Source: an uncultured Eubacteriales bacterium (GTDB taxonomy: Bacteria > Bacillota > Clostridia > Christensenellales > Aristaeellaceae). Taken from it: a DNA stretch of 61,789 nucleotides. Made by a program: the position numbers and the translations under genes. The stretch spans positions 1 through 61,789 of the forward strand of contig CACZXF010000003.1 in the NCBI GenBank assembly GCA_902785105.1. The letters run 5' to 3'. Below the pieces are notes generated by a model that made no database searches, had not been told where the DNA came from, and saw nothing but the letters and a program-made list of their open reading frames with translations. Position 1 is the stretch's first letter; each line of letters begins with the position of its first letter. Below are positions 1,082-15,896 of the stretch, in pieces.

Positions 1082-1381
1082 ATGACCGTAACGAAGGGGC
1101 GGGATGGCAAAAAGCTGACCGTAGCCGTCGAGGGACGTCTGGACACCCTGACGTCGCCTGATTTCGAGGATGCGCTGATACCGGAGCTGAACGGGATCGA
1201 TACACTGGTGTTTGACCTCAGAGATCTGGCCTACATCTCCAGCGCGGGCATTCGGGTAATGGTGCACGCCGCGCAAATCCTGGATGAGCAGGATGGCGAA
1301 ATAAGGACGCTGAACGTCAACAAGGACGTGAAAAATATATTCAATATTACCGGCCTTACGGGCGCGCTGGGCGTGGAATAG
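1082..1381 (+). CDS. STAS-domain protein (anti-sigma factor antagonist type)
   Basis: This 99-residue protein is a single STAS domain, the SpoIIAA/RsbV fold. In partner-switching circuits such proteins bind an RsbW-type kinase when unphosphorylated and release it when phosphorylated on a conserved serine. That serine lies at residues 53-54 in YISSAGIRV, the usual position at the start of the second helix. The start has a strong ribosome site (GAGGAGGAC, ATG at 1082). It is the first gene of an operon in which the third gene carries an RsbW-like domain and the next locus encodes two RsbU-like phosphatases, so all three classic partners are present. Its target (a sigma factor or the transporter itself) cannot be told from sequence. 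Confidence 0.9.
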   Translation: MTVTKGRDGKKLTVAVEGRLDTLTSPDFEDALIPELNGIDTLVFDLRDLAYISSAGIRVMVHAAQILDEQDGEIRTLNVNKDVKNIFNITGLTGALGVE

Positions 1382-1396
1382 TGAGGAAGTGATGCC

Positions 1397-2067
1397 TTGA
1401 GCCTTCAAGAAAAGCTCTACAGCATATTGATCAAAGGCGGCTCCTGGAAAACCATATTGAACGGGCTGTGGGTCACCGTGCAGATATCGGCGCTTTCGAT
1501 GCTGCTGGGCACGGCGCTGGTGGCGCTCATCTGTCTGCTGCGCACGCGCAGGCAGGCGCTGCCCCGCCGCTTTGCCCAGGCCTATATCGCCGTGCTCCGG
1601 GGCACGCCGGTGTTGATGCTCCTGCTGCTGTTGTTTTATGGCGTGCTGGCGCGATACGGCGTGCCCCCTTAACGGTTGCGGTCATCGCCTTCGGGTTGAA
1701 TGTCTCCGCCCATGTGGCGGAGCTGTTGCGGGCCGCCTGGGAAGCCACGGACAAGGGGCAGGCGGAGGCGGCCCGGACGCTCAGTCTGTCCGCCTGGGAG
1801 GCTTTTCGCTGGGTGACGCTGCCGCAAATGCTGCGCACGGCTCGGCCCGTGTTTCAGTCCACCATCGTGAACCTGATCCAGTGGACCAGCGTGGTGGGCT
1901 ACGTCACCATCACCGACCTGACCCGCGTCATCAACACCACCGCATCCCGCACCATGCAGCCCCTGCTGACCACCATCATCGGGATGCTGATCTACCTTGC
2001 GCTGAGCTACCTGGTTTTCGGCCTCTTCGCGCTGACGGACCGAAAGAAGGGAAGCGCTGAAAAATGA
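1397..2067 (+). pseudogene. Polar amino-acid ABC transporter permease, frameshifted
   Basis: This is a HisM/GlnP-type permease of about 223 residues with several membrane segments. The EAA loop that contacts the ATPase is recognisable near 1760-1830 (QAEAARTLSLSAWEAFRWVTLP). Translation from TTG 1397 runs 91 residues to a TAA at 1670-1672. The homologous sequence continues in the -1 frame from about 1666 to the TGA ending at 2067. The break falls in a run of five C's (1664-1668). Restoring a sixth C gives an uninterrupted RYGVPPLTVAVIAFGLN, so one base seems to be missing. The gene lies 15 bases after the STAS gene and its end overlaps the ATPase start by 4 bases. A sequencing error, a true null allele or -1 slippage are the alternatives. 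Confidence 0.85.
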
Positions 2068-3158
2068 GCCTGATCGAAGTCAGGGGATTGAAGAAGTCCT
2101 TCGGCGGCATGGAGGTGCTGAAGGGCGTGGACCTGACGGTGGAGCAGGGCGAGCGCATCGCCATCATCGGCAGCTCCGGCTGCGGCAAGAGCACCTTTCT
2201 GCGCTGTCTGGAGCTCCTGGAAAAGCCGGACGCGGGGCAGATATTCATCGACGGACAGGAGATCACCGCCAAACGGGCCAGGGTGGACGAGATTCGACGC
2301 AGCATGGGCATGGTGTATCAGGGGTTCCACCTGTTCTCCGAAATGGACGTGATGGACAATCTGTGCCTTGCCCCGGTCCTTCGAAAGCGCATGACGCGGG
2401 CGGAGGCGGAGAAGAAAGCCCTGGCGCTGCTCGCCCAGGTGGGCCTGGCCTCCCGCTCTCACGCCTGGCCCACGCAGCTCTCCGGCGGTCAGCAGCAGCG
2501 CATCGCCATCTGTCGGTGTCTGATGATGGAGCCGAAGGTACTGCTGTTCGATGAACCCACCAGCGCGCTGGACCCCACGATGGTGGGCGAGGTGCTGGCG
2601 GTCATACGGATGCTGGCCAGAGAGGGCCTGGGGATGCTGATCGTCACCCATGAGATGAGCTTTGCCCGGGAGGTTGCCGACCGCGTGCTGTTCTTCGCGG
2701 ACGGCGTCATCTACGAGCAGGGCACGCCCGCTCAGCTTTTCAACATCCCGATGCGGGAAAAGACCATCGCCTTCATCCGCAAAATCAAGTATTTCACCTT
2801 TAACATACAGGAAAAGCACTTTGACCTGATGTCCATGCAGGGTGGCATACAGGGCTTTGCAGAGCGATATGGCATTGATTCGGAGCACGTATATCCCCTG
2901 CAGGTCTGCTTTGAGGAGATGGTGGTTGACTTTCTGAATCACTGCTTTCCGGAGGGTGAACCCATCGACATTCACCTGGAGGTGTCCTACGCCGAGGCGG
3001 ACCATGCCGTGGTCGTTCAGGTTTCAAGCGCCGGCAGGGCCTACAACCCCCTGGAGCAATCGGACAACGCGCTGGCGGTCGCCATCATTCAACAAAGCGC
3101 GCAAAAAACGGACTATCGATTCGATCAAAACCGCAATCACCTGACCCTCGTGTTATAA
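2064..3158 (+). CDS. Amino-acid ABC transporter ATPase fused to a degenerate RsbW-like domain
   Basis: Residues 1-240 are a GlnQ/HisP-type ATPase: Walker A GSSGCGKST (36-44), Q-loop Gln86, signature LSGGQ (139-143), Walker B LLFDEP (160-165) and switch His196 are all intact. Residues 245-364 are an extra domain that aligns by eye with RsbW/HATPase_c_2 anti-sigma kinases (EEMVVDFLNH, then AGRAYNPLE, then a last strand with NHLTLV). The ATP-site residues are altered: N-box Asn is Asp289, the Asp of the G1 DxG is Ser322, and the G2 GLG is ALA (336-338). The family normally ends near residue 245, so this is a real fusion. The domain probably acts as a protein-binding module for the STAS protein in the same operon, not as a kinase. 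The start overlaps the permease stop (ATGA). Confidence 0.9.
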   Translation: MSLIEVRGLKKSFGGMEVLKGVDLTVEQGERIAIIGSSGCGKSTFLRCLELLEKPDAGQIFIDGQEITAKRARVDEIRRSMGMVYQGFHLFSEMDVMDNLCLAPVLRKRMTRAEAEKKALALLAQVGLASRSHAWPTQLSGGQQQRIAICRCLMMEPKVLLFDEPTSALDPTMVGEVLAVIRMLAREGLGMLIVTHEMSFAREVADRVLFFADGVIYEQGTPAQLFNIPMREKTIAFIRKIKYFTFNIQEKHFDLMSMQGGIQGFAERYGIDSEHVYPLQVCFEEMVVDFLNHCFPEGEPIDIHLEVSYAEADHAVVVQVSSAGRAYNPLEQSDNALAVAIIQQSAQKTDYRFDQNRNHLTLVL

Positions 3159-3181
3159 AAAGATAATAACTATTCAATCCA

Positions 3182-3207
3182 CCCCGACAAATCCCTGTTT
3201 GTCGTGG
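3182..3207 (+). promoter_or_regulatory. Intergenic stem-loop between ATPase and binding-protein genes
   Basis: CGACAAA / TTTGTCG form a hairpin in the 79-base gap, with no T-run after it. It ends just before the ribosome site of the binding-protein gene, so it may stabilise that part of the message or expose it. Such hairpins commonly set the high ratio of binding protein to membrane components. Confidence 0.35.
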
Positions 3208-3237
3208 AGGACTGGATAGTCATAAAGGAGGATAAAC

Positions 3238-4254
3238 ATGAAAAAGATTATTGCTCTCATCGCCACCCTGGCCATGTTTTGCGCTGTACTGACGCCCGCT
3301 CTGGCCGAAAGCACGATCAAGCGCATTGGCACGCTTCAAATGCTAAATATGTCCGAGCAGGATTACGCCGCCGTTCAGAAGCTGCGCGCCGTCGCCGGGG
3401 AGATGCTGAACCAGGAAAACATTCCCGCCGAGAACCCCTACTACGATGGAATGCTGGATGAAAACCCGGAGATCATCTATTTTGATTCTCTGAATGACAT
3501 GATCATGGCGCTGGATGCCAACCAGATCGACGCCATCGATCTGAACCGAAGCACCGCCGAATAACTGTGCGCCTTGAACGATAACCTCAAAATCTTGATG
3601 GATTATTCAGACGCGGAGGATAACGTGCTGACGGACTTTGTGTTCTACTCCCTGCTGAGCTTTGATTTCTCCCTGATGCTGCCGGAGGGAAATCAGACGT
3701 TGGCGGACGAACTTTCCGAGGTTTTGACCGCCATGGAGGAGGATGGCACGGTGGATGAACTGGCAGCCACTTACATCGACGATGTGAACGGCGAGGTCCC
3801 CGCCGCGGAACCGGCCTCCATCGATGGCGCCGAGACCCTCCGCGTGGCCGTCACCGGCGATTTGCCGCCCATGGACTTTGTGACCCCTGATGGCAAGCCC
3901 GCGGGCTACAACGTGGCCGTGCTGACCGAGGTCGGCAGGCGGATCGGCAGAAATATTGAGTTCGTGCCCATCTCCGCCTCCGCCCGCGCCATGGCCCTCG
4001 CCTCCGGCCAGGTGGACGCGGTGTTCTGGAGCCGAAGCTGCATGGCGGCCCAGGAGATCATCGAAAACGGGATGGAATGGAAGGATCTGGTTGTGCCCGA
4101 GGATGAAGAAGATAAAGCGATGCTGGAGAAGATCGACAAGACGCTGATGTCCTCCTTCGATTACGTCAACTATAATACCAAGGACGTCCCCGAGGACCTG
4201 GTGGTCACCGACCGTTACTACAGCGACAATATCGTGCTCGTCGCGAAAAAGTAA
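3238..4254 (+). pseudogene. Tandem amino-acid binding protein, interrupted by an in-frame TAA
   Basis: The N-terminus is a clear signal peptide (MKKIIALIATLAMFCAVLTPALAES), preceded by AAAGGAGG. Residues about 30-185 and 200-338 are two bacterial solute-binding (PBPb-type) halves; the second has the family pattern LRVAVTGDLPPMDFVTPDGKPAGYNVAVL. A TAA at 3562-3564 interrupts the reading frame after 108 residues, and the same frame then continues to 4254. The context AE-stop-LCALND suggests a Tyr codon (TAY) mutated to TAA. A downstream TTG at 3574 has no good ribosome site. As written, the cell makes a short secreted fragment unless the stop is read through. It would deliver polar amino acids to the ABC transporter in front of it. 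Confidence 0.85.
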
Positions 4255-4308
4255 AAACGGAATAACTGTTTGGTTCAGGCAGACAAGTTAGAATTTGTTG
4301 GACTGATG

Positions 4309-4380
4309 AAAAATGGAGAATGGAAAATGTAGAATGCCTTTTTGCGGGCTAACTACATTCTCCATTCTCCATTTTCCATT
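4309..4380. repeat. Imperfect palindrome of the ATGGAGAATGG type
   Basis: About 25-bp arms (4309-4336 and 4356-4380) form a long hairpin with a few mismatches, placed between convergent genes. AT-rich palindromes of this style, here and at 55054-55130, are probably dispersed non-coding repeats that double as two-way terminators. Confidence 0.6.
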
Positions 4381-4441
4381 CACCGCGATAAATCCCAGTC
4401 TATAGGAAAAGACCGGGGAATTGCGAGATGTATATAAGGCA

Positions 4442-6199
4442 TCAGGTGCCGTCCGCTCCCCTGTACTCCAGGCAGAGCATGGTCAAGTCGTCGAACTGAC
4501 TGGCTTCGCCTGTGAACCCATCCACGGCGCGGCGCACATGCTCCAGCAGTTCCCGGGGCGAACCATCGGGCTGATCATTCAGTGCCTGTAGAATCCGGTC
4601 TGTGCCGAACTGCTCCTCCCGCTCATTGTTGGCCTCGGCCAGGCCGTCGGTGTAGACGAACAGCTTTGCGCCGGGCTTCAGGTCGAGCGTGTAATCCCGG
4701 TATGCCGTCCTCTTCATGACGCCCATCACAATGCCGTGCTCATCCTCAAACATCCGGAAATCCTCACCGGGGCGTCTGAGCATCGGGTATTCATGGCCCG
4801 CGTTGGTGCAGGTCAGCCGTCCAGTGGACAGCTCCAGTATGCCCAGCCACACCGTGACGAACATCCGCATGGCATTGTCCTCACGCAATTGAGCGTTGGC
4901 AGAGGTCAGTATTTCACTGGGTGTGCCGCCCATCTTCGCGCGATAGTTGATAATATTCCTGGCCGACATCATGAACAGCGCGGCGGGCACGCCCTTGTCG
5001 GACACATCCGCGATGACCAGGGCCAGGTGGTCGTCGTCCACCATGAAGAAATCGTAGAAATCGCCGCCGACCGCCTTGGCCGGGTCCATGCTGGCGTAGA
5101 GATCGAATTCCGGGCGGTCCGGGAAGGCCGGGAACTGTCTGGGCAGCACGGAGGTCTGGATTTTCGCGGCCATGTTCAGCTCTGTTTTGACCCGCTCCCG
5201 CTCCGCGGTGACGCGGGTCAATTTGTCGGCGCTGTCCACAATGCGCATCTGCATGGACTTTATCTCATGGTACAGATCGCCAATCTCGTCGTTGGAGCGA
5301 ATGGGCAGGTCTATCACCATGTCCCTGGAGAAACCCTCCTCCCCCATCTCAAATTTCGCGGCGCCCTCCGCGAGCTGCATCAGGGGCTTTGTGGCCAGCC
5401 TCCGGGTCAGCAACATGGTGACCGCCATCGCCACGAGGGTGAGAACCGCGATGTACAGGGCGCTGTTCACCAGAAACCAGCGGCGCTCCTCCACCACACC
5501 GCGCATGTCGATGTCCACGTATAACCGGGCGGGAATCCAGTAATCGTCATCCCAGTATTCCTCAATCGGCTCACAGGCGGTGCAAAGCCAATCCTCCCCG
5601 TTTCGATAGATGGTGGGCGGCATGACATCGTCGCCGCCGTATTGGGCAAAGGCGTCTATGGGGTCCTTTGCCGTGCCGATGAGCAGCAGGCTCTCCCCAG
5701 GGGTCACGAGGCTGTAGTTCACGCCATCCACGACATACTGTATGTACGCGGCATCAATGTCAAAGGTCGCCCTTTCATCCTCCAAATGAACTTCGAGCAT
5801 CCGATAATCGCCATAGAGGGTATATCTCCCCTTGTCAGCAATGTTGGATTCATTTTTGGCATAGTATTCCGCGAGATAGGGCGTCGGCGGCTGTGCGCGC
5901 ATCCAGTCCTCGATGATCCGCTCATCATTCGCCGCTGTAGCCCTGGCGCGCACCTCCCGGAATTCGTCCGAATCGATCCTTTCACGCAGATAGGAGGTCA
6001 ATTGATAGGGAAAGTGTTCTATCGCCAAATCACGGGCGGCGACCTCCGCCTGTTTGAAATAGATGCTGTCCACCTTCTGCTTATAGACTGTATAGGTGAT
6101 CAGCAGCAGTCCCAGTGAGATCAAAAGGATGCCGGCGATCAGCATGAGGTTCAGCTTTGCCCCCATCCCGAAGCGATGACTCTTTCGCGTCTGAATCAT
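4442..6199 (-). CDS. Membrane SpoIIE/RsbU-type PP2C phosphatase with HAMP domain (copy 1)
   Basis: The 585-residue protein has a membrane helix at about 15-38, an extracytoplasmic domain to about 240, a second helix at about 243-266, a HAMP linker, then a SpoIIE-type PP2C domain from about 355. The metal-binding Asp motifs are present (VGGDFYDFF near 375, IADVSDKG, YTDGLAEANN, DDLTMLCLEY). Enzymes of this family dephosphorylate STAS proteins, so the substrate is likely the STAS protein encoded upstream. The extracytoplasmic domain has a Cys pair in WLCTACEP near residue 204. The start at 6199 is chosen for the AGGAGGAGA ribosome site; an upstream ATG at 6283 has none. It is a close paralogue of the next phosphatase. 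Confidence 0.92.
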   Translation of the reverse strand: MIQTRKSHRFGMGAKLNLMLIAGILLISLGLLLITYTVYKQKVDSIYFKQAEVAARDLAIEHFPYQLTSYLRERIDSDEFREVRARATAANDERIIEDWMRAQPPTPYLAEYYAKNESNIADKGRYTLYGDYRMLEVHLEDERATFDIDAAYIQYVVDGVNYSLVTPGESLLLIGTAKDPIDAFAQYGGDDVMPPTIYRNGEDWLCTACEPIEEYWDDDYWIPARLYVDIDMRGVVEERRWFLVNSALYIAVLTLVAMAVTMLLTRRLATKPLMQLAEGAAKFEMGEEGFSRDMVIDLPIRSNDEIGDLYHEIKSMQMRIVDSADKLTRVTAERERVKTELNMAAKIQTSVLPRQFPAFPDRPEFDLYASMDPAKAVGGDFYDFFMVDDDHLALVIADVSDKGVPAALFMMSARNIINYRAKMGGTPSEILTSANAQLREDNAMRMFVTVWLGILELSTGRLTCTNAGHEYPMLRRPGEDFRMFEDEHGIVMGVMKRTAYRDYTLDLKPGAKLFVYTDGLAEANNEREEQFGTDRILQALNDQPDGSPRELLEHVRRAVDGFTGEASQFDDLTMLCLEYRGADGT

Positions 6200-6290
6200 G
6201 CTGTCTCTCCTCCTTCCTTTGATTGCTGCCCTGTTTTTTAGCGCAACTTGCCCTTTAAACATGGATTTATCGGGGAGATGCACACGCTCC

Positions 6291-6369
6291 TGTAGGGGCG
6301 GCGTTGCGCCGCCCGCCGGGTAAAACGATGCGTTTCGTTGGGGACGGGCGCCGAAACGGCGCCCCTACA
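6291..6369. repeat. 79-bp dispersed palindromic element (GTAGGGGCGG family)
   Basis: The ends are inverted (TGTAGGGGC at 6291, GCCCCTACA ending at 6369) and the interior contains two smaller GC-rich hairpins. The left 28 bases (6290-6317) recur with one mismatch at 61550-61577. It is a REP/MITE-like non-coding repeat in the gap between the two phosphatase genes. Confidence 0.7.
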
Positions 6370-6449
6370 AGGTTGGTTTGACTCCCCGACAAATTCCAAT
6401 TTACCCAGCATCCTGATTGTTAGCGTTCCGCGGAATCGTTGCTCTTAAG

Positions 6450-8216
6450 CTATTCCGCTTTCTTCGGCCCCCTGTATTCCAGGCAGAGCATCGTCAGGTC
6501 GTCAAACTGGACCGCACCCTTGACGAAAGCGTCCACATCCGCGCGCACGCCCTTCAATATGCCTTCCGGATCGTTCCCCTGAAACTGGTTCAGTGCCATC
6601 TCCAGGCGGGCCCGGGTATACAGCTCGCCCTCGGCGTTATTGGCCTCGGAAACGCCGTCCGTATAGACGAACACCGCATCTCCGGGGCGCAGCGAAATCG
6701 TGTAATCCCGATACTTCATTCCCGACATGATGCCCAGGGGCAGCCCATGCGGGTCCGTCAATATCCGGAACCTGCCGTTTTCCCGGACGACAGGGTATTC
6801 ATGACCCGCGTTGGTGCATGTCAGCCTGCCCGTGCTCAATTCCAGTATGCCGAGCCACACCGTGACGAACATCCCCGTTGGGTTGTTCCCGCAGAGCTGT
6901 GCGTTGACGGACGTCAGTATCTCGCCGGGAGCGCCGCCCATACGCGCACGGTATTTGAGGATGATTTTGGCGGACATCATAAACAGCGCGGCGGGCACGC
7001 CTTTGTCGGAGACGTCCGCGATCACCAGGGCAAGGTGGTCGTCGTCCACCAGGAAGAAATCATAGAAGTCGCCCCCGACCTCCTTGGCGGGGTCCATGCT
7101 GGCGTACAGGTCAAATTCCGGGCGGTCCGGGAAGGCTGGAAACTTTCTGGGCAGCACGGAGGTCTGGATATGCGCCGCCATGTTGAGCTCCGTGTTGACG
7201 CGCTCACGCTTTGCCGTAGCGCGGGTCAGCGCGTCAGCGTCGTCCACGATGCGCACCTGCATGGCCTTTATCTGGTGATACAGATCGCCAATCTCATCGT
7301 TCGAGCGGATCGGCAGGTCAATCACATCGTCCCTCGAAAAGCCCTCGTCCCCCATCTCAAATTTCGCAGTTCCCTCTGCCAACTGCTTCAGGGGAGTCGC
7401 CGCCAATCTGCGGGTCAGCAGCAGCGTGACCGCCATCACCGCAAGGGTGAGCAGCGCGATGAACACGGCGCTGTTGACCAGGAACCAATGGCGCTCCCGG
7501 ACCACATCGTTCATGTTGATGTCCACGCACATCTGCGCGACCGGCACACGCTCATTGCTATCCCATTCATCCAGGATCGGTTCGCAGGCGGTGCAGAGCC
7601 AGTCTCCTCTGAATTGATAAATGGTGGGCGGTATGCGGTCGTTGCCGGTATATCTGGCAAGAGCCTCGATGGGCTCCTCCGCCGTGCCAATGTCCAGCAG
7701 GCTCATATCAGGGTCCGCCAGGTTGTAGGTCACGCCGTCCACGACGTACTGTATGTAGACATCGACGTCGAAAATATCCTCCGCGTCCGGCAGCGTCCAG
7801 GTTATGAGAGTCAAATAATCGCCATACAGCGTATATTGGACCTTCTCCTCCTCGGTCAGCTGGGAAAAATCCGGAGCGACACGCCCCTCGATAACATTGT
7901 CCGAGGGCTTTTCAAGCATCCAGTCCTCGATGATCTGCTCGTCGTTCGCGGCCACGGCCCGCGCCCGCACCTCACGGAATTCGTCGGTATCGATCATCTT
8001 TCTCAAATTCGCTGAGAATCCATCGGGAGTATGATTATACACGATGTCGATCACAGCGCGTTCGGCCCGCTCAAAATATTTGCTGTCCACCTTGCGGCAA
8101 TAGACCCCGTAGGTGATCCGCACAAATCCCAGCGCAATCGCGAGGATGCAGGCGATGAGCATGATGTCCAGCTTTGTTCCCAGCCCAACCCGGCGTGCCC
8201 TTCGCTCCGTCCTCAT
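6450..8216 (-). CDS. Membrane SpoIIE/RsbU-type PP2C phosphatase with HAMP domain (copy 2)
   Basis: This 588-residue protein has the same layout as its neighbour: helix about 15-37, extracytoplasmic sensor, helix about 243-266, HAMP, and PP2C with VGGDFYDFF, IADVSDKG, YTDGVSEANN and DDLTMLCLEY. The Cys pair in WLCTACEP (about 205) is conserved, although much of the sensor domain differs, so the two copies may detect different cues while sharing one output. ATG 8216 follows an AGGGGGAA ribosome site. The two genes probably arose by tandem duplication. The dispersed repeat between them may limit read-through from this copy into copy 1. Confidence 0.92.
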   Translation of the reverse strand: MRTERRARRVGLGTKLDIMLIACILAIALGFVRITYGVYCRKVDSKYFERAERAVIDIVYNHTPDGFSANLRKMIDTDEFREVRARAVAANDEQIIEDWMLEKPSDNVIEGRVAPDFSQLTEEEKVQYTLYGDYLTLITWTLPDAEDIFDVDVYIQYVVDGVTYNLADPDMSLLDIGTAEEPIEALARYTGNDRIPPTIYQFRGDWLCTACEPILDEWDSNERVPVAQMCVDINMNDVVRERHWFLVNSAVFIALLTLAVMAVTLLLTRRLAATPLKQLAEGTAKFEMGDEGFSRDDVIDLPIRSNDEIGDLYHQIKAMQVRIVDDADALTRATAKRERVNTELNMAAHIQTSVLPRKFPAFPDRPEFDLYASMDPAKEVGGDFYDFFLVDDDHLALVIADVSDKGVPAALFMMSAKIILKYRARMGGAPGEILTSVNAQLCGNNPTGMFVTVWLGILELSTGRLTCTNAGHEYPVVRENGRFRILTDPHGLPLGIMSGMKYRDYTISLRPGDAVFVYTDGVSEANNAEGELYTRARLEMALNQFQGNDPEGILKGVRADVDAFVKGAVQFDDLTMLCLEYRGPKKAE

Positions 8217-8333
8217 TGCGTTCCCCCTATACAGACATCCATTAACGTATCATAACATCGCTGATATTCATTTGCAATGCGTATTTTAATAACAGAATAA
8301 GCGGCAATGTTTTTTAATCTAAGCCTTGTGCGG

Positions 8334-8362
8334 TTGATAAATATACAATTATTTGGTATAAT
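8334..8362 (+). promoter_or_regulatory. Promoter of the diguanylate cyclase gene
   Basis: TTGATA (8334-8339) and TATAAT (8357-8362) are 17 bases apart, 79 bases upstream of the ATG. The rest of 8217-8440 is AT-rich and shows no gene. Confidence 0.75.
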
Positions 8363-8440
8363 GATATTCCCTCGGCTGTTGCCACGGCGGGAAATCTGTT
8401 TTTCCCAAATGATATAAAGCATTCATGAGGACGAAAGACC

Positions 8441-9547
8441 ATGACAAACGCAATTCATATAGAGCTTAACGCGCTGTGTCTGCTGATGCTCTACGCAATC
8501 GCCCATCAAACCCTGGCAAACGTCAACCAGCAGATGAACCGGGTGCTGTTTCGCAGCCTGGTCTATGGCGTCATCACTCAGCTTGCGCTGGACATCCTCT
8601 GGCTGCTGGTGGAGGGTCATCTCTTTCCCGGAGCCATACTTGCCAACAAGGTGATCAACGCGCTGTTTCTCGCCGAGGGCGTCATATTGGGCTGCGTCTG
8701 GAACCTGTATGTACTGGAAACTCTGGGGCATCCGATAACCCGGCGGCTGCAAACCATCGTCATGATACCGGGTCTCATCTTCCTCGCTCTGAATGCGCTG
8801 TCGATCTGGACGGGGTGGATTTTCACGGTTTCCCCGGAAAATATTTACGCCCACGGTCCCCTCTTCTGGGCTCAGATGATCGGCGCCTATGGTATGCTGG
8901 CCCTGCCCCTGTTCCCCCTTCTCCGCAACCTCGGAAAGGATCGCGTTCCGCGAAACGTCGTGCTTTCTCTGCTGAGCTTCTACGCGGTTCCCGTATTGGG
9001 CGCCATCGTCTCGCTGTTCTATACCGGTATGCCCGGCACCTGGACCTGTGCCTCGGTTTCCCTGGTGCTGATGTATATGAACGATCAGGACAATGAGATC
9101 ATACGGGACGGCCTTACAGGGCTCAACAATCGAAAGACGCTGCCCGGCGTATTCTCTGAATATGTGAAGGAGCCGCCGCTGTATCTGCTCATGATGGACC
9201 TCGACAGCTTCAAAACCATCAACGACACCTACGGCCATCCCGCAGGGGACCAGGCGCTCGTCGCCGCCGCCGGAATTCTGACCCATGCGATGGCCGGGCG
9301 CAGGGGCATCGTGGTCCGCTATGGCGGGGATGAGTTTCTGGTGATGACAAGTTCTGATCCGGTCGGCCTTGAGCAGGATATTCAGCAGAGGTTCGAGCAG
9401 TACCGAAGGGAACAAACGCCCCCCTACAAGTTCGCGATGAGCATTGGCATCGCGGAGTATAAGGCGGGGCAAACCCTTGAGGCGCTGATCGAGGAAGCGG
9501 ACGCGGAGCTATATAAGGTAAAGCAACGCACGAAGGCGGGAAGATGA
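8441..9547 (+). CDS. Membrane-bound diguanylate cyclase (GGDEF)
   Basis: The 368-residue protein has about seven N-terminal hydrophobic segments (1-215), then a GGDEF domain that makes cyclic di-GMP from two GTP. The active-site YGGDEF is intact at 294-299, and the usual DGLTGLNNR and DLDSFKTINDTYGH motifs precede it. The inhibitory RxxD site expected just before GGDEF is absent (the sequence is GRRG), so product inhibition of the common type is unlikely. It faces an HD-GYP gene across a shared terminator, which suggests synthesis and breakdown of c-di-GMP are encoded side by side. Confidence 0.93.
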   Translation: MTNAIHIELNALCLLMLYAIAHQTLANVNQQMNRVLFRSLVYGVITQLALDILWLLVEGHLFPGAILANKVINALFLAEGVILGCVWNLYVLETLGHPITRRLQTIVMIPGLIFLALNALSIWTGWIFTVSPENIYAHGPLFWAQMIGAYGMLALPLFPLLRNLGKDRVPRNVVLSLLSFYAVPVLGAIVSLFYTGMPGTWTCASVSLVLMYMNDQDNEIIRDGLTGLNNRKTLPGVFSEYVKEPPLYLLMMDLDSFKTINDTYGHPAGDQALVAAAGILTHAMAGRRGIVVRYGGDEFLVMTSSDPVGLEQDIQQRFEQYRREQTPPYKFAMSIGIAEYKAGQTLEALIEEADAELYKVKQRTKAGR

Positions 9548-9654
9548 CGACGACACGGTCCTTGAAAATAATGGCAACTGTTCAGTAATGACCATAAACA
9601 AGTGATTGTAAGGAAGATGCACACTCTTCTGACATGTAAACTGAATTGTATAAT

Positions 9655-9697
9655 TAAAAACAGACGTCCATGAACCGCTCATGGACGTCTGCGCTGT
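9655..9697. terminator. Bidirectional terminator between GGDEF and HD-GYP genes
   Basis: A 13-bp perfect stem (9661-9673 with 9679-9691) has a 5-base loop, A's on its left side and T's on its right. It can stop transcription from both convergent genes. Confidence 0.85.
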
Positions 9698-9731
9698 TTT
9701 AAGGAACTGATCACGGGCTTTTCACTTGCTC

Positions 9732-11657
9732 TCATATATCATTCCCATCGTCATCCGCGTCATGTCCATCCCCGTAAGCGCCGAAGGTCATCTTTGAAAG
9801 CAAATAATAGGTGTCACGATAGGTTTCCCGTCGGCCCTCGGTCAGGAGATTGCGGATGCTGGAATCCGCGTCGTTCAGTATCGGCCACAGCCATGGGGCA
9901 TAGTGGGTGCCCGGCTCCGGCCGGATCTCCTCGAGGAAATCGTCGAAGGTCTTTCCCGCGCGATAGCTGCGCCCCACGGAGTCCGTACAGGCGTCCATGC
10001 AGTCCGCGCACAGCACCAGGTCGATGATGGGCTTGATGGGGCTGATGGAGGTATCAAAGGTCTCGGGATACCCGCGGGAATTGTCATACCAGCGGTGGTG
10101 TCCCGCGGCGACATCGGCATAGGCGCGGGTCGAATTATACCGCTTCAACAGCTCATAGCCGGCGAGTGGGTGGGTTTTAATGAGGTCAAATTCCACATCA
10201 AACAGATTGCGCCCGTACACGAAAATCGTATCAATGATCGCCAGCTTGCCAAAGTCATGGCAGAACCCGGCGTGGGCAACAAATTCGCAAAGCTCCTGCC
10301 GACGGAGCAGGACGTCCTCCGCCGTGGCGCAGCCCAGCACGCCGATCAGCAGGGCGGGTTCGCGATCGATGAGATTTTCGCACAGGCAGCGGGCGATCTT
10401 GCCAACCATCACCGAATGAATATAGGTCGGAGGATGGAGCGCGGCCAGGCAGTCGAGCATCATGTCCTCAAAGGTGATTTCCCCCGGAACCTCGATGAAG
10501 CGGTGGATGATGTGAATGTAATACTCCAGCATGGTGGAGAGGCTGTTCCCGTTTGGCATTCTGAAGGCATAGCGGATCATATCCCTGTAGAGGATATGCA
10601 GCCTCGAAGCCTCCAAAGGGGTGATATGCGCCGGGTCATACAGGCAAATCGCCTCGGCGGGGATTTGCAGGTTTTCGTAGATGCCGTTCAAATCATAGCG
10701 ATCGGGGTCGCGCTGACGGTACAGGGAGATGAGTTCATCGTGGTATTCTTCCTCGCTGATTCTGCCCGCCAGATAGCGATTTCGATACAGCAGCAGCCGA
10801 ATCTGCCGCTCGTTGTCGAACTGGGAGAAAAACGCCCTGTCGCTCTCCCACAGTTTGACGAAGGCCTCCGTCCTGTCGCAGATCGCATTCAGCGCGTCGG
10901 TGCCGAAGCCCCTGGCATTGCAGAAATCCGTCATTTTCGAATAGTAGTTCAGGGCGCGATAGCGAAAATAGGACCAGTTCAGGTCGGGAGCGAGATGATG
11001 GCAGAACGGATCATCCGCCATGGCCAGTATTCTGTCCAGGAACGCGGGCTCCTCCAACTGCACAGGATTTTCGGCGGCCAGGCCCTCATAGAACACGGCC
11101 ATATACCGTATATCCGTGAGGATGATTTCCCGGCTCTTTTCGTCCAGGCACAGCCCATGCCTTTCCCGATCAAGCAGATCGAGGAAGTAATGGCCAATGC
11201 GCAAGCCCTCCTGGCGGAAACGATCGGAGATATCCGACGCGAATCGGGAGCGGCCCATCATGGACATGAGCGCATAGCAGGTGTCCATCCGAATGTCAAA
11301 GCGCTGGATGGTCAAAGAGATATCCTCTCTCTTCTCCGCGTCCTCCAGCAGCCTTTCGGACAGCAGGGACATCAGCGCCAGGTCAAGGTTTTCAACATCG
11401 ACCGCGGACAGCAGGGTCTCCCCGAAGGACAGCAGATCTGTGGTTTCATCGCTGGAAAGGAGCCTGTCCGCGTGAATGGTGGGAAAGAAAACCGCGTTCA
11501 GGAAGCTGCGGTTCTCCTGGGCAAGCTCGCCGATCCGTATGAAATTCTGCCGCAGCGTTTCACAATACCTTTCCGCGTCCGGAATGCCCTTCATCGACGG
11601 CGAGGAAAGCCGCCTGATTTCTTCGAGACGCTGAACAAAACCATTGTATCCCGACAT
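9732..11657 (-). CDS. HD-GYP-type phosphodiesterase with long helical N-terminus
   Basis: This 641-residue soluble protein has about 400 helical residues with no recognised motif, followed by an HD-GYP domain. Visible motifs are the early metal His region HPPTYIHSVMVG, then CHDFGK (HD pair about 466-467), KTHPLAGYELL, and GHHRWYDNSRGYP near 518-531, close to the HHERxDGxGYP signature. HD-GYP enzymes hydrolyse c-di-GMP; the variant GYP segment leaves some doubt about activity. It is convergent with the diguanylate cyclase, so the pair probably sets a local c-di-GMP level. The N-terminal helices may be a TPR-like or ligand-sensing region. Confidence 0.85.
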   Translation of the reverse strand: MSGYNGFVQRLEEIRRLSSPSMKGIPDAERYCETLRQNFIRIGELAQENRSFLNAVFFPTIHADRLLSSDETTDLLSFGETLLSAVDVENLDLALMSLLSERLLEDAEKREDISLTIQRFDIRMDTCYALMSMMGRSRFASDISDRFRQEGLRIGHYFLDLLDRERHGLCLDEKSREIILTDIRYMAVFYEGLAAENPVQLEEPAFLDRILAMADDPFCHHLAPDLNWSYFRYRALNYYSKMTDFCNARGFGTDALNAICDRTEAFVKLWESDRAFFSQFDNERQIRLLLYRNRYLAGRISEEEYHDELISLYRQRDPDRYDLNGIYENLQIPAEAICLYDPAHITPLEASRLHILYRDMIRYAFRMPNGNSLSTMLEYYIHIIHRFIEVPGEITFEDMMLDCLAALHPPTYIHSVMVGKIARCLCENLIDREPALLIGVLGCATAEDVLLRRQELCEFVAHAGFCHDFGKLAIIDTIFVYGRNLFDVEFDLIKTHPLAGYELLKRYNSTRAYADVAAGHHRWYDNSRGYPETFDTSISPIKPIIDLVLCADCMDACTDSVGRSYRAGKTFDDFLEEIRPEPGTHYAPWLWPILNDADSSIRNLLTEGRRETYRDTYYLLSKMTFGAYGDGHDADDDGNDI

Positions 11658-11740
11658 ATATCAAGTCCTCATTTGCGTAGCGGGTTATGACCATGGCACA
11701 GCCATGTCTGACCATCGACGGCAGGCTTAGGCGCTGTGAA

Positions 11741-11876
11741 GAAATAAGTTGAACAATAATGCGTAGGATAAATTTTCATATGCAAGGCGGAGGAGGGAGG
11801 CGATGTGGAACATCGCTGACCGACGACAACGCAGCAGATGGAAATTTAGACAAGCAGAATGTTCAAATTATTTCTG
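11741..11876. repeat. 136-bp imperfect palindromic element
   Basis: Ends AGAAATAA (11741) and TTATTTCT (11869-11876) are inverted. Inside, GTTGAACA pairs with TGTTCAA, AAATTTTCATATGC with GCAGATGGAAATTT, and the centre is a GCGATGT/ACATCGC hairpin. No protein is encoded. It looks like a MITE or large REP-type element and ends only a few bases before the guaA-like sequence at 11887. Confidence 0.65.
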
Positions 11877-11882
11877 AACAGT

Positions 11883-11902
11883 GCCTTACTCCCACTCGAC
11901 AA
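11883..11902. other. Possible left attachment site (guaA 3'-end-like sequence)
   Basis: On the minus strand this reads GTC GAG TGG GAG TAA GGC AC, that is Val-Glu-Trp-Glu-stop. It matches the 3' end of guaA (Ile-Glu-Trp-Glu-stop, at 49624-49643) in 16 of 20 positions; the differences are all transitions, mostly at third codon positions. The 8-base core TCCCACTC is identical. This is what an attL for a guaA-targeting integrase would look like, but the match is short. Confidence 0.4.
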
Positions 11903-12000
11903 GATATTTCTATTAATATCTTGATTTCAATATTTCTATTCTATTTTCATATCTTTATTTGTTTATATTTCCTCTCATCCACGCCTTTTCAGACTTTTTC

Positions 12001-12018
12001 AGTATCAAAACAGTATCA
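12001..12018. repeat. 18-bp direct repeat, left copy
   Basis: AGTATCAAAACAGTATCA occurs exactly here and at 49551-49568 in the same orientation; here it is extended by CGCGTGATAC, an inverted copy of the GTATCA half. It may be an integrase arm-type site. Apart from this, the palindrome and the guaA-like core, 11658-12332 is AT-rich and non-coding; a 68-codon minus-strand frame at 12117-12323 is open but has no ribosome site. Confidence 0.5.
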
Positions 12019-12332
12019 CGCGTGATACTGTAAAATGCCGATTGAGGTCTCTTACTATTATTATAATACATGAGGCCTTCGAATTGCAAGCTTTTTCTGC
12101 CCGAATTGTCCACTATTCATTCTGAGATTTCAAATAACCTCTTAATTGACAAATTAACATGCACTTGTCGTCCAAATAAGGTATCTGAACCATCCATTGC
12201 TTTCTGATAGACAATTGCTTCACTTATCCAAATAATAGTGGCTAATTTCGTATTAAAGTTGACCACCGAGGATGGCTCTGGTGGATAATAAATGATACAA
12301 TGGACGATTACTCGAAAATGCATCCGGTGGAT

Positions 12333-13933
12333 TCATTTTGAAGGTTGGGTTAAGAGATGTTTCATCTCCTCCCACTTCTCTATCTTACACTCATATTCCT
12401 TACTGCCCTTATCATAGCTTATCCCAACCAGCCGCAATTCTCCACCGTAGTCCTCTAAGCCTTTAGCATACCCCTTCGCCTTGATCTGGCTAATTGCTGT
12501 CTCCGCATCCTTTTTCCACTTCAGCACAACCAACAGAATCGGTACGCCCTTTCCCTGCTTTGGTAAATATACGATATCGGCATACCCCTCCCCTGTCGCC
12601 AATTCCTCAAACTTCAAATAGTAATCCTTTTAGGCGAAGTATGCGACCTGAATCGCTGCACGGAGTGAGTCCTCTCTGTTGCGGGTTAAGGGGTTTGACG
12701 CTTCCTCGTGGACGCGCTTGATCTGGGCGGCAACAGCTTCCTCATTCCCATGAATCGTATCCATGATCAGCTGATCGCTCTCCTGGACGCGCTTCATGGT
12801 TTCGACGTTCGTCGTCTTCCTCAGCGTTCGCACGAACTCCAAGCGAATCTCTTCGTTGGGGATATGAACTGTACCTGTATCCTGATTATACGCCAAGTAA
12901 CCCAGGTGGACGAGCATCGTTAGCGCAGCGTCTCGTGTATCGTATACCAAATCATTATCATACCCAGCTGTATCAATCTCGATTTCCACACCGCCCATGA
13001 GTTCAATGATCGCCTGACGAAGGCCACCTATGTCCCATTTTATAAATTCCAGTAGGTTGTCCGCAGCAAAGGACTGAGCCCAGTAGGATTTGAATCTCAT
13101 TTTCTGGGCTGCCTTCATTACGGAATTCGGATTATAAATAGGGCCAATCCCTGACACCTCGTATCCATCGTACCAACGCTTCATCTCAGAGAATGACACT
13201 CCATATTCCTTGCAGAGTTCCTGCACATCATCCTCTGTAAAACCCACATACTCTGCCAGTTCGCCGGGATCCAACATCGTATACTCTTCAAAATTCGACA
13301 CGGCCGATTGCCCTTTTTGCTTCTTGATTGGCAAAATGCCCGTCATGTAGACAGCTGCAAAGAGCTTTGCTGTTGTTCCACTATTCTTGAACAGCGAACG
13401 GAGAAAATCCAGATATTCTTGTTCGTTTCCCATTCCCTCGCGAAGAGGTGCGTCCCACTCATCAATGATCATGATAAACTTGCTTTTTAGCGCTTCCACA
13501 GCATTGACGAGTGTGGTCATGAAGTCGGAATCAATTCTTATGCAGTCATATGCTTGGCTGAGTTCGTATGTGATTCTATCCTTTAAATAAGGAACAAGCG
13601 TTCTGTAATTATCACAGAACGACTTTACCCCGGCTATGTCGATATAAATCACGTTGTATTTGTTTAAGTGATCCTGATACGATGCCTTCTTTGTGATCGT
13701 TAACTGATTTGGTTCCTCAAAAAGGGAGCGCGAATCCACAGTCCGATCATAATACGCGCAAAGCATCTGAGCTGCATAGGATTTCCCGAACCGCCGTGGG
13801 CGGCTGATGCAAGTCAAATTCATCCCCGTGTCGATGGTGCTGTTAATCACATCGATCAGGCCTGTTTATCAATATATTTGGTTCTCAGAACGCTGGCAAA
13901 CCCGCTGTTGCCAGGATTCAGATAAGTCCCCAT
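12333..13933 (-). pseudogene. AAA-ATPase-like / PD-(D/E)XK-type protein (AAA-ATPase_like + DUF1703), broken twice
   Basis: The intact form would have about 530 residues. It starts MGTYLNPGNSGFASVLRTKYIDK at 13933, continues with the ISRPRRFGKS nucleotide-binding loop and YIDIAGV, and ends in the DUF1703 part with GYADIVYLPKQG and ILLVVLKWKKDAETAI. Two lesions are visible. A frameshift near 13858-13862 follows KYIDK, and an in-frame TAA at 12630-12632 replaces what is probably a Tyr (YFA-stop-KDYYLKFEEL). Members are abundant in gut bacteria, often in many degraded copies, and their function is unclear (nuclease or mobile-element-linked). Lower GC than the genes to its left and right suggests acquisition. 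Confidence 0.85.
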
Positions 13934-13937
13934 GTGC

Positions 13938-14190
13938 TCACCTCCAGGACGATAAACCCTCGCTTAAAGCATACCATAAACTACGAACCGTTGCAAGGCT
14001 TTTTGAGTAGCCGATGGGGGTACTGTACTTACCCAATGCGATATGGTTGAAGGTTTCGATCAGCTCGTCCGCCGCGGCGTGCACGGCCTCCTCGGTGGTA
14101 ACGCCGTAATCAGAGAGCCGTAGCGGCACCTGCCCTCTTTGATCAGGCAGGCCGTCGCCGCCCAAAGTGAAATCATTGCAGATTACTCCC
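13938..14190 (-). pseudogene. Gene remnant of unknown origin
   Basis: The minus strand from about 14190 reads KGVICNDFTLGGDGLPDQRGQ and then PLRLSDYGVTTEEAVHAAADELIETF before running out at 13938 in non-conserved sequence. The LRLSDYGVT...A...L pattern loosely recalls the C-terminal part of iron-containing alcohol dehydrogenases, but no diagnostic residues are left. It has no start signal and lies directly upstream of the broken AAA-ATPase gene, so it is probably debris left by insertion. Confidence 0.3.
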
Positions 14191-14196
14191 TTTGTC

Positions 14197-14724
14197 TCAG
14201 CCGACGTTCTCGTCGTTGCCCAACGTCAGGGTGTGGTCGCGCAGGTTCTCCCAGGCCAGGCGGTTCAGCGGGTCATACATAACCTCGTCCATCGCGTCCG
14301 CCGCGCCGGCGTCCTCAAAGATCGCGCGGTTCGCATCGTAGTCCTCAAGGCACTCGTCCAGCAGGGCGCGCACGGTATCGAAATTCGTCCAGAAGGCTGC
14401 CTGCTCATCCTCATCCATGCCCTCGAAGGCGGCGAGCATGTTGGCGCGCAGGGGCTCCACGTCGGGATTGTAGAGCTCGTGGGTCTCCGCGAAGGTGCAG
14501 ACCTCGCTGGCGGCGATGGCCGTCTTGAGGGACGCACCCGCCATGCCGGATTCGAGGTTCGCCAGCACGCCGAAATAGCCCTCGGTGAATTCTTCCGCCG
14601 TGGGGGCTTCCGCAGGCGCGGGCGTTTTGTATTCATCGTCCTCCGCGGTGAATTCTTCCCCATAGGCAGCGCCGGAGGCAAAGAGGAGGATCGCGTATCT
14701 AAAGCAGGTAATCGTTCCACACAT
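14197..14724 (-). CDS. Small secreted acidic protein of unknown function
   Basis: From ATG 14724 the 175-residue product begins MCGTITCFRYAILLFASGAAYGEEF, which resembles a signal peptide, followed by an acidic Pro/Ala linker and a helical domain rich in Asp/Glu (DVEPLRANMLAAFEGM, DDYDAN-like and LNRLAWENLRDHTLTLG segments). The same frame is open upstream to 14889 inside the preceding gene, and no ribosome site is obvious at 14724. The start is therefore uncertain, or the true 5' end was lost in a fusion. The gene overlaps the end of the acyltransferase-like gene by 26 bases, which would allow coupled translation. I do not recognise the family. Confidence 0.5.
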   Translation of the reverse strand: MCGTITCFRYAILLFASGAAYGEEFTAEDDEYKTPAPAEAPTAEEFTEGYFGVLANLESGMAGASLKTAIAASEVCTFAETHELYNPDVEPLRANMLAAFEGMDEDEQAAFWTNFDTVRALLDECLEDYDANRAIFEDAGAADAMDEVMYDPLNRLAWENLRDHTLTLGNDENVG

Positions 14725-15895
14725 TGGCAAATTCGTCGATTCTGGGATAGGCATAGGCCACGACGGCGATGGTGGCGATCCATATCGTCGCGAACACCAC
14801 CGCCCGTTTTCTGCCCGTCCGCCCCGCGATGCCGAAGCGCAGGTGCCGCTCGTTCCACTCGATGATGAAAAAGCAGGCGGCCTCCACAAAGACGGCGTAG
14901 ATCGTGGGCAGCAGCCAGCCCGGCATCAGCTCGCCGCGAATCAGCATCAGCAGCATCTGCATGGGCAGGATGAACATATAGCTGACGCAATAATATTGGT
15001 TGATGTGCCGCGACATGTGGCTGGCGATGGGGTGCGCGTCCCTGCCCCCGGACAATAGGCAGAACACTGCCAGCAGCACCACCGCCAGCAGGCACGTCCC
15101 CCAGGCGTCCGGGCCCGGCATCAGTATGTATTGCAGATAGGAGTTGAACTCCGGCAGCCAGGGAATCACGCCCAAAATCCGCAGCGCAAACCATGCTGCG
15201 CACACCGGCAGCCCCACTGCCAGCACCCGCTTGGCCAGGCGCTTCTTATCCGCGATCCGGAGATAGACGCCGCCCAGCCAATAGCCAAAGGCCACGAACA
15301 CAAAGTAGCTGCACAGCGGGAAGTAGGACTCGGCATCCGTGACCACGAAGAAGCCCACCAACTGGCTGACCAGATAGTTCTCCGGGGGCTTCATGACATT
15401 GTAGAGCGCCGCCGCGGCCAGGTTCAGGCCGATCCCCAAGCCCAGTACGCCCCGGTTCGGCACGCGCAGCGATTTCAGCGCCGCCAGCAGCATATACGCC
15501 AGGCCCGCGAAGGAGAGGATGTCCGCCTGGACCACCAGCAGAGCGTTGGCGATGAAAAACTGCCTTCCCGAAATCCACCAGGCGATCAGGTTCGGCAGCG
15601 CGTTTCTACATAGGTTCAGCAGCTGCCCCACGGTCAAAAGCTCCCAGCCCCGCGACAGCCGTTCCTTCGGCGATTGCCTCCGGGAATAGCGCATGCCCAG
15701 CCCCATGCAGATCATGAACGCAGCCGCCCCGGTGAAGGTGCAGGCGTAATCCGAAACGGTGAATACCAGGTTTTCCGTTTCGGCCAGGCATTCCTGGGTA
15801 TGCAGCAGGATCATCCAGCCGAGGCAGAACGCCTTGAGCATATCCACCTCGGGCTGGCGTCCGGTATTCACCCGGTACCTTGAAAACAACCTCAT
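14699..15895 (-). CDS. Polytopic membrane protein, acyltransferase-like (HGSNAT/DUF1624 type)
   Basis: The 398-residue protein has about ten hydrophobic segments. Near the N-terminus, RQPEVDMLKAFCLGWMILLHTQE resembles the Arg/Asp...LLH pattern of DUF1624/acyltransferase-3 membrane proteins, where a His in the first helices takes part in acyl transfer. The ATG at 15895 lies one base after the stop of the clostripain gene (TGACATG), so the two are translationally coupled. It could modify surface glycans or a secreted protein. The family call rests on topology and the N-terminal motif only. Confidence 0.6.
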   Translation of the reverse strand: MRLFSRYRVNTGRQPEVDMLKAFCLGWMILLHTQECLAETENLVFTVSDYACTFTGAAAFMICMGLGMRYSRRQSPKERLSRGWELLTVGQLLNLCRNALPNLIAWWISGRQFFIANALLVVQADILSFAGLAYMLLAALKSLRVPNRGVLGLGIGLNLAAAALYNVMKPPENYLVSQLVGFFVVTDAESYFPLCSYFVFVAFGYWLGGVYLRIADKKRLAKRVLAVGLPVCAAWFALRILGVIPWLPEFNSYLQYILMPGPDAWGTCLLAVVLLAVFCLLSGGRDAHPIASHMSRHINQYYCVSYMFILPMQMLLMLIRGELMPGWLLPTIYAVFVEAACFFIIEWNERHLRFGIAGRTGRKRAVVFATIWIATIAVVAYAYPRIDEFANVWNDYLL

Positions 15896-15896
15896 G

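Follow-up and report, generated by a model that had tools for sequence, protein, structure and literature searches.

A putative RsbW-derived docking domain on ABC importer ATPases of gut and rumen anaerobes and its links to partner-switching genes

Partner switching is known mainly from the control of genes, and the post-translational regulation of ATP-binding cassette (ABC) transporters is not well understood. According to the available excerpts of the respective reports, the SiaABCD system of Pseudomonas aeruginosa is a partner switch with a diguanylate cyclase output and no sigma factor (PMC7647112, PMC8457831), and MlaB, a STAS protein, binds the ABC ATPase MlaF, touching both the nucleotide-binding domain (NBD) and a ~25-amino-acid (aa) MlaF extension (PMC7367683). 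In the same excerpts, the authors of the MlaFB study propose, and leave open, phospho-control at MlaB Thr52, and report that they found no other PDB entry combining STAS and ABC domains (PMC7367683). Here we analyze a locus that brings these themes together, at the left end of contig CACZXF010000003.1 (assembly GCA_902785105.1) from an uncultured Eubacteriales bacterium; the window is this whole contig (positions 1-61789), and the parent genome comprises 3.44 Mb in 131 contigs. The locus encodes a STAS protein, an importer of the polar-amino-acid type whose ATPase carries a C-terminal domain resembling the anti-sigma kinase RsbW, and two membrane phosphatases of the PP2C/SpoIIE type.

We propose that importer activity is directly controlled by docking of STAS on this domain, a pseudokinase in our reading, and we regard this proposal as on balance probable, if only just. 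The window locus is best explained as a remnant or a slightly damaged copy of such a partner-switching-controlled ABC importer. The computed support consists of the domain assignments, the predicted fold of the tail, the loss of ATP-site residues with retention of a STAS-contacting glutamate, purifying selection and gene linkage across phyla; from these we infer the binding of STAS to the tail, its dependence on phosphorylation and its effect on transport.

The RsbW-like tail of the importer ATPase

The genes and gene parts of the locus are as follows.

1082..1381, + strand: STAS-domain protein of the anti-sigma-factor-antagonist type, 99 aa (PF01740, 49 bits, cut-off 22.6)
1397..1672, + strand: N-terminal part of a polar-amino-acid-type permease, ending at a frameshift (TIGR01726, 55.7 bits, cut-off 42.2)
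1675..2067, + strand: C-terminal part of the permease, in a different frame (PF00528, BPD_transp_1, 43.7 bits, cut-off 26.4)
2064..2786, + strand: NBD of the ABC ATPase, residues 1-241, GlnQ/ArtP type (PF00005, E 2.8e-37)
2787..3158, + strand: predicted RsbW/SpoIIAB-like pseudokinase tail, residues 242-364 of the ATPase (fold model, Foldseek, hhalign)
3238..4254, + strand: family-3 solute-binding protein gene, interrupted (PF00497, 65 bits, cut-off 26.4, in 3574-4254)
4442..6283, - strand: membrane PP2C/SpoIIE phosphatase 1 (PF07228, 168.8 bits; HAMP, 24.6 bits, just missing the cut-off of 25)
6450..8216, - strand: membrane PP2C/SpoIIE phosphatase 2, a tandem paralogue (PF07228, 167.7 bits; HAMP, 27.3 bits, above the cut-off)

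The ATPase gene (2064-3158) encodes 364 aa, of which residues 1-241 resemble GlnQ/TcyN, and the best fold match of the protein in the PDB is ArtP (2olj, 55% identity). Near the C-terminus, residues 262-362 match HATPase_c_2 with an E-value of 9.2e-6 and 26.1 bits, just below the cut-off of 27.4. Models of the full ATPase built with 67 relatives (pLDDT 91, pTM 0.70) and of the isolated 123-residue tail built with 70 relatives (pLDDT 92.7, pTM 0.84) predict that the tail folds as an RsbW/SpoIIAB anti-sigma kinase. When the tail model was compared with the PDB by Foldseek, all 18 chains retrieved at E<=0.001 came from UsfX, SpoIIAB and RsbW entries, and the next two were chains of the SiaB-SiaC complex; many of the tail's matches were solved together with a STAS partner (8ih8, 1tid, 6m37, 1th8). 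Moreover, hhalign relates the tail to the RsbW proteins of these genomes with a probability of 97.1% (E 7.5e-11), which, with the fold matching that family alone at this threshold, bears out the RsbW-like nature ascribed to the tail in the initial annotation. When PDB sequences were searched with the tail profile, RsbW was not found (best E 0.23), so that the kinship is visible by fold and profile-profile comparison only. No match emerged when viral contigs were scanned with the tail as a single query, a search that detects close relatives alone.

The residues of the ATP site tell the tails apart from true kinases. The N-box Asn is replaced in all 71 tails compared (by Glu in 58, Asp in nine, Ala in three and Val in one) and the G1 Asp is missing from all 71, which rules out the tail as a working kinase; the N-box Glu is kept in 71/71, and all three residues are kept in 8/8 stand-alone RsbW proteins. 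In the Bacillus subtilis RsbV-RsbW structure, as described in the available excerpts, RsbW Glu49 touches RsbV Ser56, the phosphorylated serine, and Asp42, Lys44 and Ser48 make further contacts with RsbV (PMC7340262). In our alignment register, these helix-2 residues Asp42, Lys44, Ser48 and Glu49 correspond to tail positions 37, 39, 43 and 44; Arg is found at 37 in 65 of the 71 tails, Gln at 39 in 67 and Glu at both 43 and 44 in all 71, and all four positions belong to the 29 of 123 tail columns that are invariant or nearly so. Such a pattern would be expected of a pseudokinase used for docking. Furthermore, the tail is under purifying selection: relative to the closely related locus L147 (metagenome-assembled genome, MAG, RUG11065), nonsynonymous divergence (dN) is 0.17 and synonymous divergence (dS) 0.93.

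The other components of the expected switch are recognizable in the window. Domain matches place the STAS protein, the ATPase with its RsbW-like tail and the two membrane RsbU-like phosphatases where the initial annotation had put them. The STAS protein also exceeds the cut-off of TIGR00377 (61.7 against 53.45 bits), is 66% identical to the STAS at the corresponding place in L147 and has the motif YISSAGIR with the expected phospho-serine; YxSSAG(L/I)R, with the Tyr and Ser of the docking motif, is present in 18/18 STAS proteins chosen for comparison, the window's included. Elsewhere in the same genome, STAS also occurs at the C-terminus of two ~420-aa proteins (L007 and L008), which we take to be methyltransferases. 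By TIGR01726, the permease belongs to the HEQRo 3-TM (three-transmembrane-segment) subfamily and, together with the family-3 binding protein, interrupted as its gene is, marks the importer as one of the polar amino acid (PAAT) type; none of the window importer proteins reached an equivalog cut-off for a named amino acid substrate. The C-terminal part of the permease is 90% identical to that of L147 and overlaps the ATPase start by 4 bp. Both phosphatases, 64% identical to each other (blastp, 585 columns), have two hydropathy-predicted transmembrane segments flanking a ~200-aa extracytoplasmic stretch, followed by HAMP and PP2C.

As the initial annotation had also noted, the locus lacks a stand-alone anti-sigma kinase and a sigma factor, and the same holds for the whole window: its HATPase_c_2 matches are the tail and a 465-aa His_kinase open reading frame (ORF), and none of the 12 sigma70_r2 matches of this genome falls on it, which leads us to reject a local SigB-type target. 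Since the STAS gene begins 1,081 bp from the left edge of the contig, an upstream partner may be missing from view. The genome has four RsbW-type genes elsewhere, whose products are 42-49% identical to RsbW of the L047/L147 cluster, and the kinase serving the window STAS could be one of these. Beyond the importer, a GGDEF protein (8441-9547, + strand) and an HD-domain protein (9732-11657, - strand) adjoin the phosphatases and recall the PP2C/STAS/diguanylate-cyclase set of SiaABCD. Farther downstream, an open frame of 6,824 aa (18083-38557, - strand), rich in Ala, Val, Gly and Thr and with an apparent signal peptide, perhaps encodes a giant surface protein; three pieces covering the frame gave no Pfam match at E<=1e-5.

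Switch genes around tailed ATPases and other carriers

A search of 308 genomes of the window's taxonomic family found window-type tailed ATPases (E<=1e-110) in 30 genomes from seven genera; an all-in-one query comprising binding-protein domains, permease, ATPase and tail had matches at E<=1e-120 in 34, split and partial forms included. The set examined for neighbors consisted of 28 window-type proteins (2 of 31 window-type places were left out), 12 all-in-one proteins and 35 other ATPases with a long C-terminal extension, of which 28, 12 and 34, respectively, matched the tail profile at E 1e-3; the extension without such a match (L112) was counted and has no partner gene. Five loci (L055, L107, L113, L117 and L126) were dropped from the counts because of the lack of a long tailed frame, a cut contig or a weak tail. 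Flanks extended mostly up to ~8 kb per side where the contig allowed, with mean totals of 11.3, 9.9 and 11.6 kb in the three classes and 12.7 kb, the longest, in the controls; partner genes were considered linked when they lay in a same-strand chain with gaps of <=500 bp.

A STAS, RsbW or PP2C gene was found in the flanks of 11/28 window-type, 6/12 all-in-one and 5/35 other tailed ATPases, and was linked on the same strand in 6/28, 5/12 and 2/35. With the window included, 23 of 76 tailed ATPases have partner genes nearby, as against none of 40 tail-less control ATPases of the same taxonomic family (one-sided Fisher 1.5e-5), and linked partner genes occur in 14/76 against 0/40 (one-sided Fisher 1.7e-3). 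The neighborhood singled out in the initial annotation thus recurs, with fuller clusters in Synergistales and in one Veillonellaceae and one Peptococcaceae record; given these counts and the clusters in another phylum, we judge chance neighbors to be unlikely. A scan of contigs with the tail alignment was evaluated for the best 80 of 120 confirmed loci, which by title are mostly MAGs, many from the ruminant gut, and are assigned to Clostridia, Selenomonadales, Synergistales, a few Chloroflexi/Anaerolineaceae and some Butyrivibrio isolates. Of these best 80, 79 have an intact ATPase, and partner genes accompany 15 of these and are linked in seven; L148 (RUG14601), with STAS, RsbW and PP2C genes, was excluded from this count because the ATPase core is gone. 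The two sets overlap (L147, for instance, is a record of L047), and their totals are not added together.

The gene orders in the fuller clusters are informative. L147 encodes STAS, permease, tailed ATPase, binding protein, RsbW and PP2C, in this order, whereas the order in L208 (Veillonellaceae) is binding protein, permease, tailed ATPase, PP2C and STAS; in L196 (Peptococcaceae), STAS and a PP2C-RsbW fusion lie 2.4 kb downstream, beyond our linkage rule. RsbW-type kinases are encoded in the related clusters L147, L148 and L193, and in L198 the kinase is fused to PP2C; importer and switch genes also occur together in L060 and L058. Among nine loci titled Synergist- or Fretibacterium, five have partner genes and the other four have none. 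In the Synergistales stretch L288, which extends L193, genes for STAS, a 364-aa protein, PP2C, RsbW and a STAS-APH-like fusion are followed by those for five binding proteins, the permease and the tailed ATPase, all co-directional from STAS to ATPase over ~11 kb (6060 to 16934). The other four Synergistales stretches (L289-L292) likewise combine STAS, PP2C-RsbW and importer; ORFs on the opposite strand precede the permease in L291 and L292 (one or two) and PP2C-RsbW in L289 (one).

Several additional features of these clusters deserve mention. The ATPase of the most complete operon (L193, 9296-10405) is apparently shortened in frame at the Walker A region, by assembly error or real loss. PP2C phosphatases of 1,058-1,067 aa are encoded in L164 (10451-13627), directly 3' of the tailed ATPase gene and with regulator-propeller repeats according to Pfam, and in L169 (15506-18709), where the protein is similar by sequence. 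Directly paired with the STAS gene in L288 (5409-6032), L289 (515-1132) and L052 (11226-11831) is the gene for a ~205-aa protein whose helix-2 motif resembles that of RsbW and which is possibly another degenerate kinase.

The Synergistales genomes were also examined for a sigma-factor output. Each of four cluster-bearing genomes checked has three sigma70_r2 matches, namely one FliA/WhiG above its cut-off, one small protein of the sigma70-ECF type and RpoD, which exceeds its cut-off in three genomes and in the fourth is an interrupted frame recognized by eye; in none of the four did a sigma factor reach the SigB/F/G cut-off. In three of them (G308, G309 and G315), only one HATPase_c_2 match, that in the importer cluster, is better than E 1e-15, and each also has one weaker match above the Pfam cut-off, in a frame of 429-471 aa; the fourth (G310) has a second strong match outside the cluster. 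A classical SigB-type target looks unlikely in these genomes.

RsbW-like domains are also found on other carriers. Pfam detects MatE together with a C-terminal HATPase_c_2 domain, both above cut-off, in L118, L194 and L014, the last of these in the window's own genome; matches to the MATE-RsbW protein at E<=1e-50 are present in 25 of 100 family genomes, and 32 of the 33 matches cover the whole chain including the domain. Among 23 MATE-linked loci scanned, 15 fit the N-box pattern and the same 15 fit the G1 pattern; as these patterns themselves require Asn and Asp, this indicates only that MATE-linked RsbW domains with apparently intact ATP sites exist. The sodium-dicarboxylate symporter in L060 has an N-terminal domain that the Pfam scan of this protein left unrecognized and that hhalign relates to the tail (96.3%, E 1.5e-9); five homologues in the symporter alignment share it. 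The MATE-RsbW gene adjoins the tailed ATPase gene in L118 and importer genes in L194, and the symporter gene overlaps an importer gene in L060. In L058, a protein that by eye looks like MATE-RsbW, cut by the edge of the stretch, adjoins the PP2C-RsbW gene. Inside the Synergistales cluster, a multi-spanning membrane protein with a tail-like end domain was observed as well (L197 3-1751, L205 188-1036), for which the L205 copy gave no Pfam match at E<=0.01.

Taken together, these carriers (ABC importer ATPases including all-in-one chains, MATE exporters, sodium-dicarboxylate symporters and a membrane protein) tempt us to a broader proposition, which we advance tentatively and which falls somewhat short of being probable: RsbW-type domains, some dead and some with an apparently intact ATP site, would be fused to unrelated carriers, and a shared STAS/RsbW/PP2C module would switch these post-translationally in anaerobes of the gut and rumen that belong to at least two phyla; in some genomes, this would be the principal, or even the sole, output of partner switching.

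Proposed control of the importer and its alternatives

With respect to the importer itself, we hypothesize that the dead RsbW-type domain on the ATPase serves as a docking site for STAS. A true RsbW-type kinase, encoded beside the importer in relatives and elsewhere in the genome in the present case, would phosphorylate the STAS serine, and the membrane PP2C phosphatases would read an external or membrane signal and remove the phosphate. If the tail binds unphosphorylated STAS only, the signal would decide how much of the importer is STAS-bound, and this fraction would set transport activity post-translationally and without involvement of a sigma factor; STAS could equally well act as a brake or as a required co-activator.

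Several observations weigh against this proposal. Column 80, beside the G1 position, is Asp in 8/71 tails, so that a shifted G1 register is conceivable for those eight, and Arg at position 37 is replaced in six of the 71 tails: those of the window and of its two nearest relatives, which have Pro, and three more. The Fisher values overstate independence because the loci are related to each other; moreover, the detection profiles were seeded partly from these same loci, and two of the linked STAS matches (L128 and L144) are gene fragments. The absences noted in Synergistales are provisional since these genomes are MAGs. Finally, in the window itself both the permease and the binding-protein genes are broken, and no kinase gene adjoins them.

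A further difficulty is that 53 of the 76 tailed ATPases have no partner gene in the flanks covered, which implies that the tail needs no partner next door. It could act on a partner in trans, and a strong RsbW match was found somewhere in the genome in 8/8 genomes checked. The same fact favors the alternative that the tail is an RsbW-derived dimerization or regulatory domain that no longer meets STAS, like the accessory domains of MalK and MetN, the nearby switch genes serving other targets; the RsbW dimer interface, formed by helix 1 and strand 1 according to the available excerpts (PMC7340262), falls in regions that are well conserved in the tail. Nevertheless, we consider such a loss of STAS contact unlikely: none of the 40 tail-less controls has these genes nearby, the partner genes and the importer of L288 are co-directional over their entire span, the STAS-contacting Glu is kept in every tail while the ATP site is lost, and RsbW-like domains appear on two other carrier types within the same clusters. 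Somewhat less likely still is a reversal of roles, in which the importer would be the sensor: substrate binding or turnover would alter the tail, STAS would be released or sequestered, and free STAS would act on another target, such as another RsbW, a diguanylate cyclase or a second tailed transporter. Titration of STAS is how partner switches work in principle, and carriers with RsbW-like domains share clusters with the importer in L060, L118 and L194. The GGDEF protein next to the window phosphatases would fit as well, given the precedent of SiaC, a STAS-like protein able to drive an enzyme of this kind (excerpts of PMC7647112 and PMC8457831). However, the usual sensor layout, an extracytoplasmic stretch with HAMP, is found on the phosphatases and not on the importer, and the surroundings of the loci revealed no shared downstream target, GGDEF not having been searched for in the Synergistales clusters.

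The state of the window copy raises the question of whether it is merely a decaying operon, with leftover STAS and ATPase genes and unrelated phosphatases. Two lesions disrupt it. The permease listed in the initial annotation is frameshifted near 1655-1675 and hence not a single open frame, in contrast to the single intact ORF of its relatives; and the binding protein described there as tandem corresponds to a single gene that an in-frame stop (3562-3564) interrupts, an intact 337-aa ORF being present in the two nearest relatives (L047/L147 and L148). Thus, the window importer copy may be without transport activity. In the same branch, the core of permease and ATPase is gone from L148, which retains STAS, tail, binding protein, RsbW and PP2C, and L047 has in-frame stops upstream of its PP2C gene; in L148, the deletion fuses the permease start to the ATPase tail (9732-10372). 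Either the importer is being lost in this branch or some of the lesions are assembly errors. All window pieces, however, have dN/dS of 0.14-0.36 relative to L147, well under 1, so that any decay is recent, and intact copies exist in other genomes; we therefore hold a mere decaying operon to be quite improbable, and it would be no argument against the system as such.

If control of the importer through STAS docking is real, partner switching would act on nutrient uptake directly, quickly and reversibly, and the STAS/RsbW/PP2C sets of anaerobes that have no SigB-type factor would gain a target. The findings suggest that nutrient uptake in gut and rumen bacteria is turned up or down through a partner switch. 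Since STAS, a likely kinase, a phosphatase and an ATPase bearing the putative RsbW-like dock are encoded together in relatives, phospho-control of a STAS protein on an ABC ATPase becomes directly testable.

Parallels with known systems

Among the matches listed by our literature searches, and as far as the text available for these goes, there was no RsbW-like domain on an ABC ATPase and no partner-switched importer; the combination of an importer ATPase bearing an RsbW-type dock and encoded with the switch was not found described among them. MetN and MalK are likewise importer ATPases with a C-terminal control domain, but their C-terminal domains have other folds and roles than the tail, and in the Foldseek comparison of the window ATPase their chains align via the NBD or with a large root-mean-square deviation. 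The likeness to SiaABCD lies in the presence of a PP2C phosphatase, a kinase and a STAS-like protein acting on an enzyme, and window phosphatase 1 resembles SiaA (E 1.1e-24), although at 87 bits it stays far below the cut-off of 700 bits of the SiaA equivalog NF038263.

As in the present locus, the MlaFEDB system pairs the gene for a STAS protein with that for an ABC ATPase extended at its C-terminus. In contrast to Mla, the window permease is of the BPD_transp_1/HEQRo and not the MlaE/MCE type, the extension is a 123-aa RsbW-like domain, folded according to the models, and kinase and phosphatase genes are adjacent in relatives. The closest kinship is with RsbU-RsbV-RsbW and SpoIIE-SpoIIAA-SpoIIAB (6m36, 1th8, 1tid), with which the locus and its relatives share the STAS phospho-serine motif, SpoIIE/PP2C phosphatases, RsbW-type kinases in related clusters and the predicted RsbW fold of the tail. 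Unlike in RsbU-RsbV-RsbW, a kinase with intact N and G1 boxes is encoded not in the window but in related clusters and elsewhere in the genome, and the proposed target is not a sigma factor but an ABC ATPase with a dead RsbW domain.

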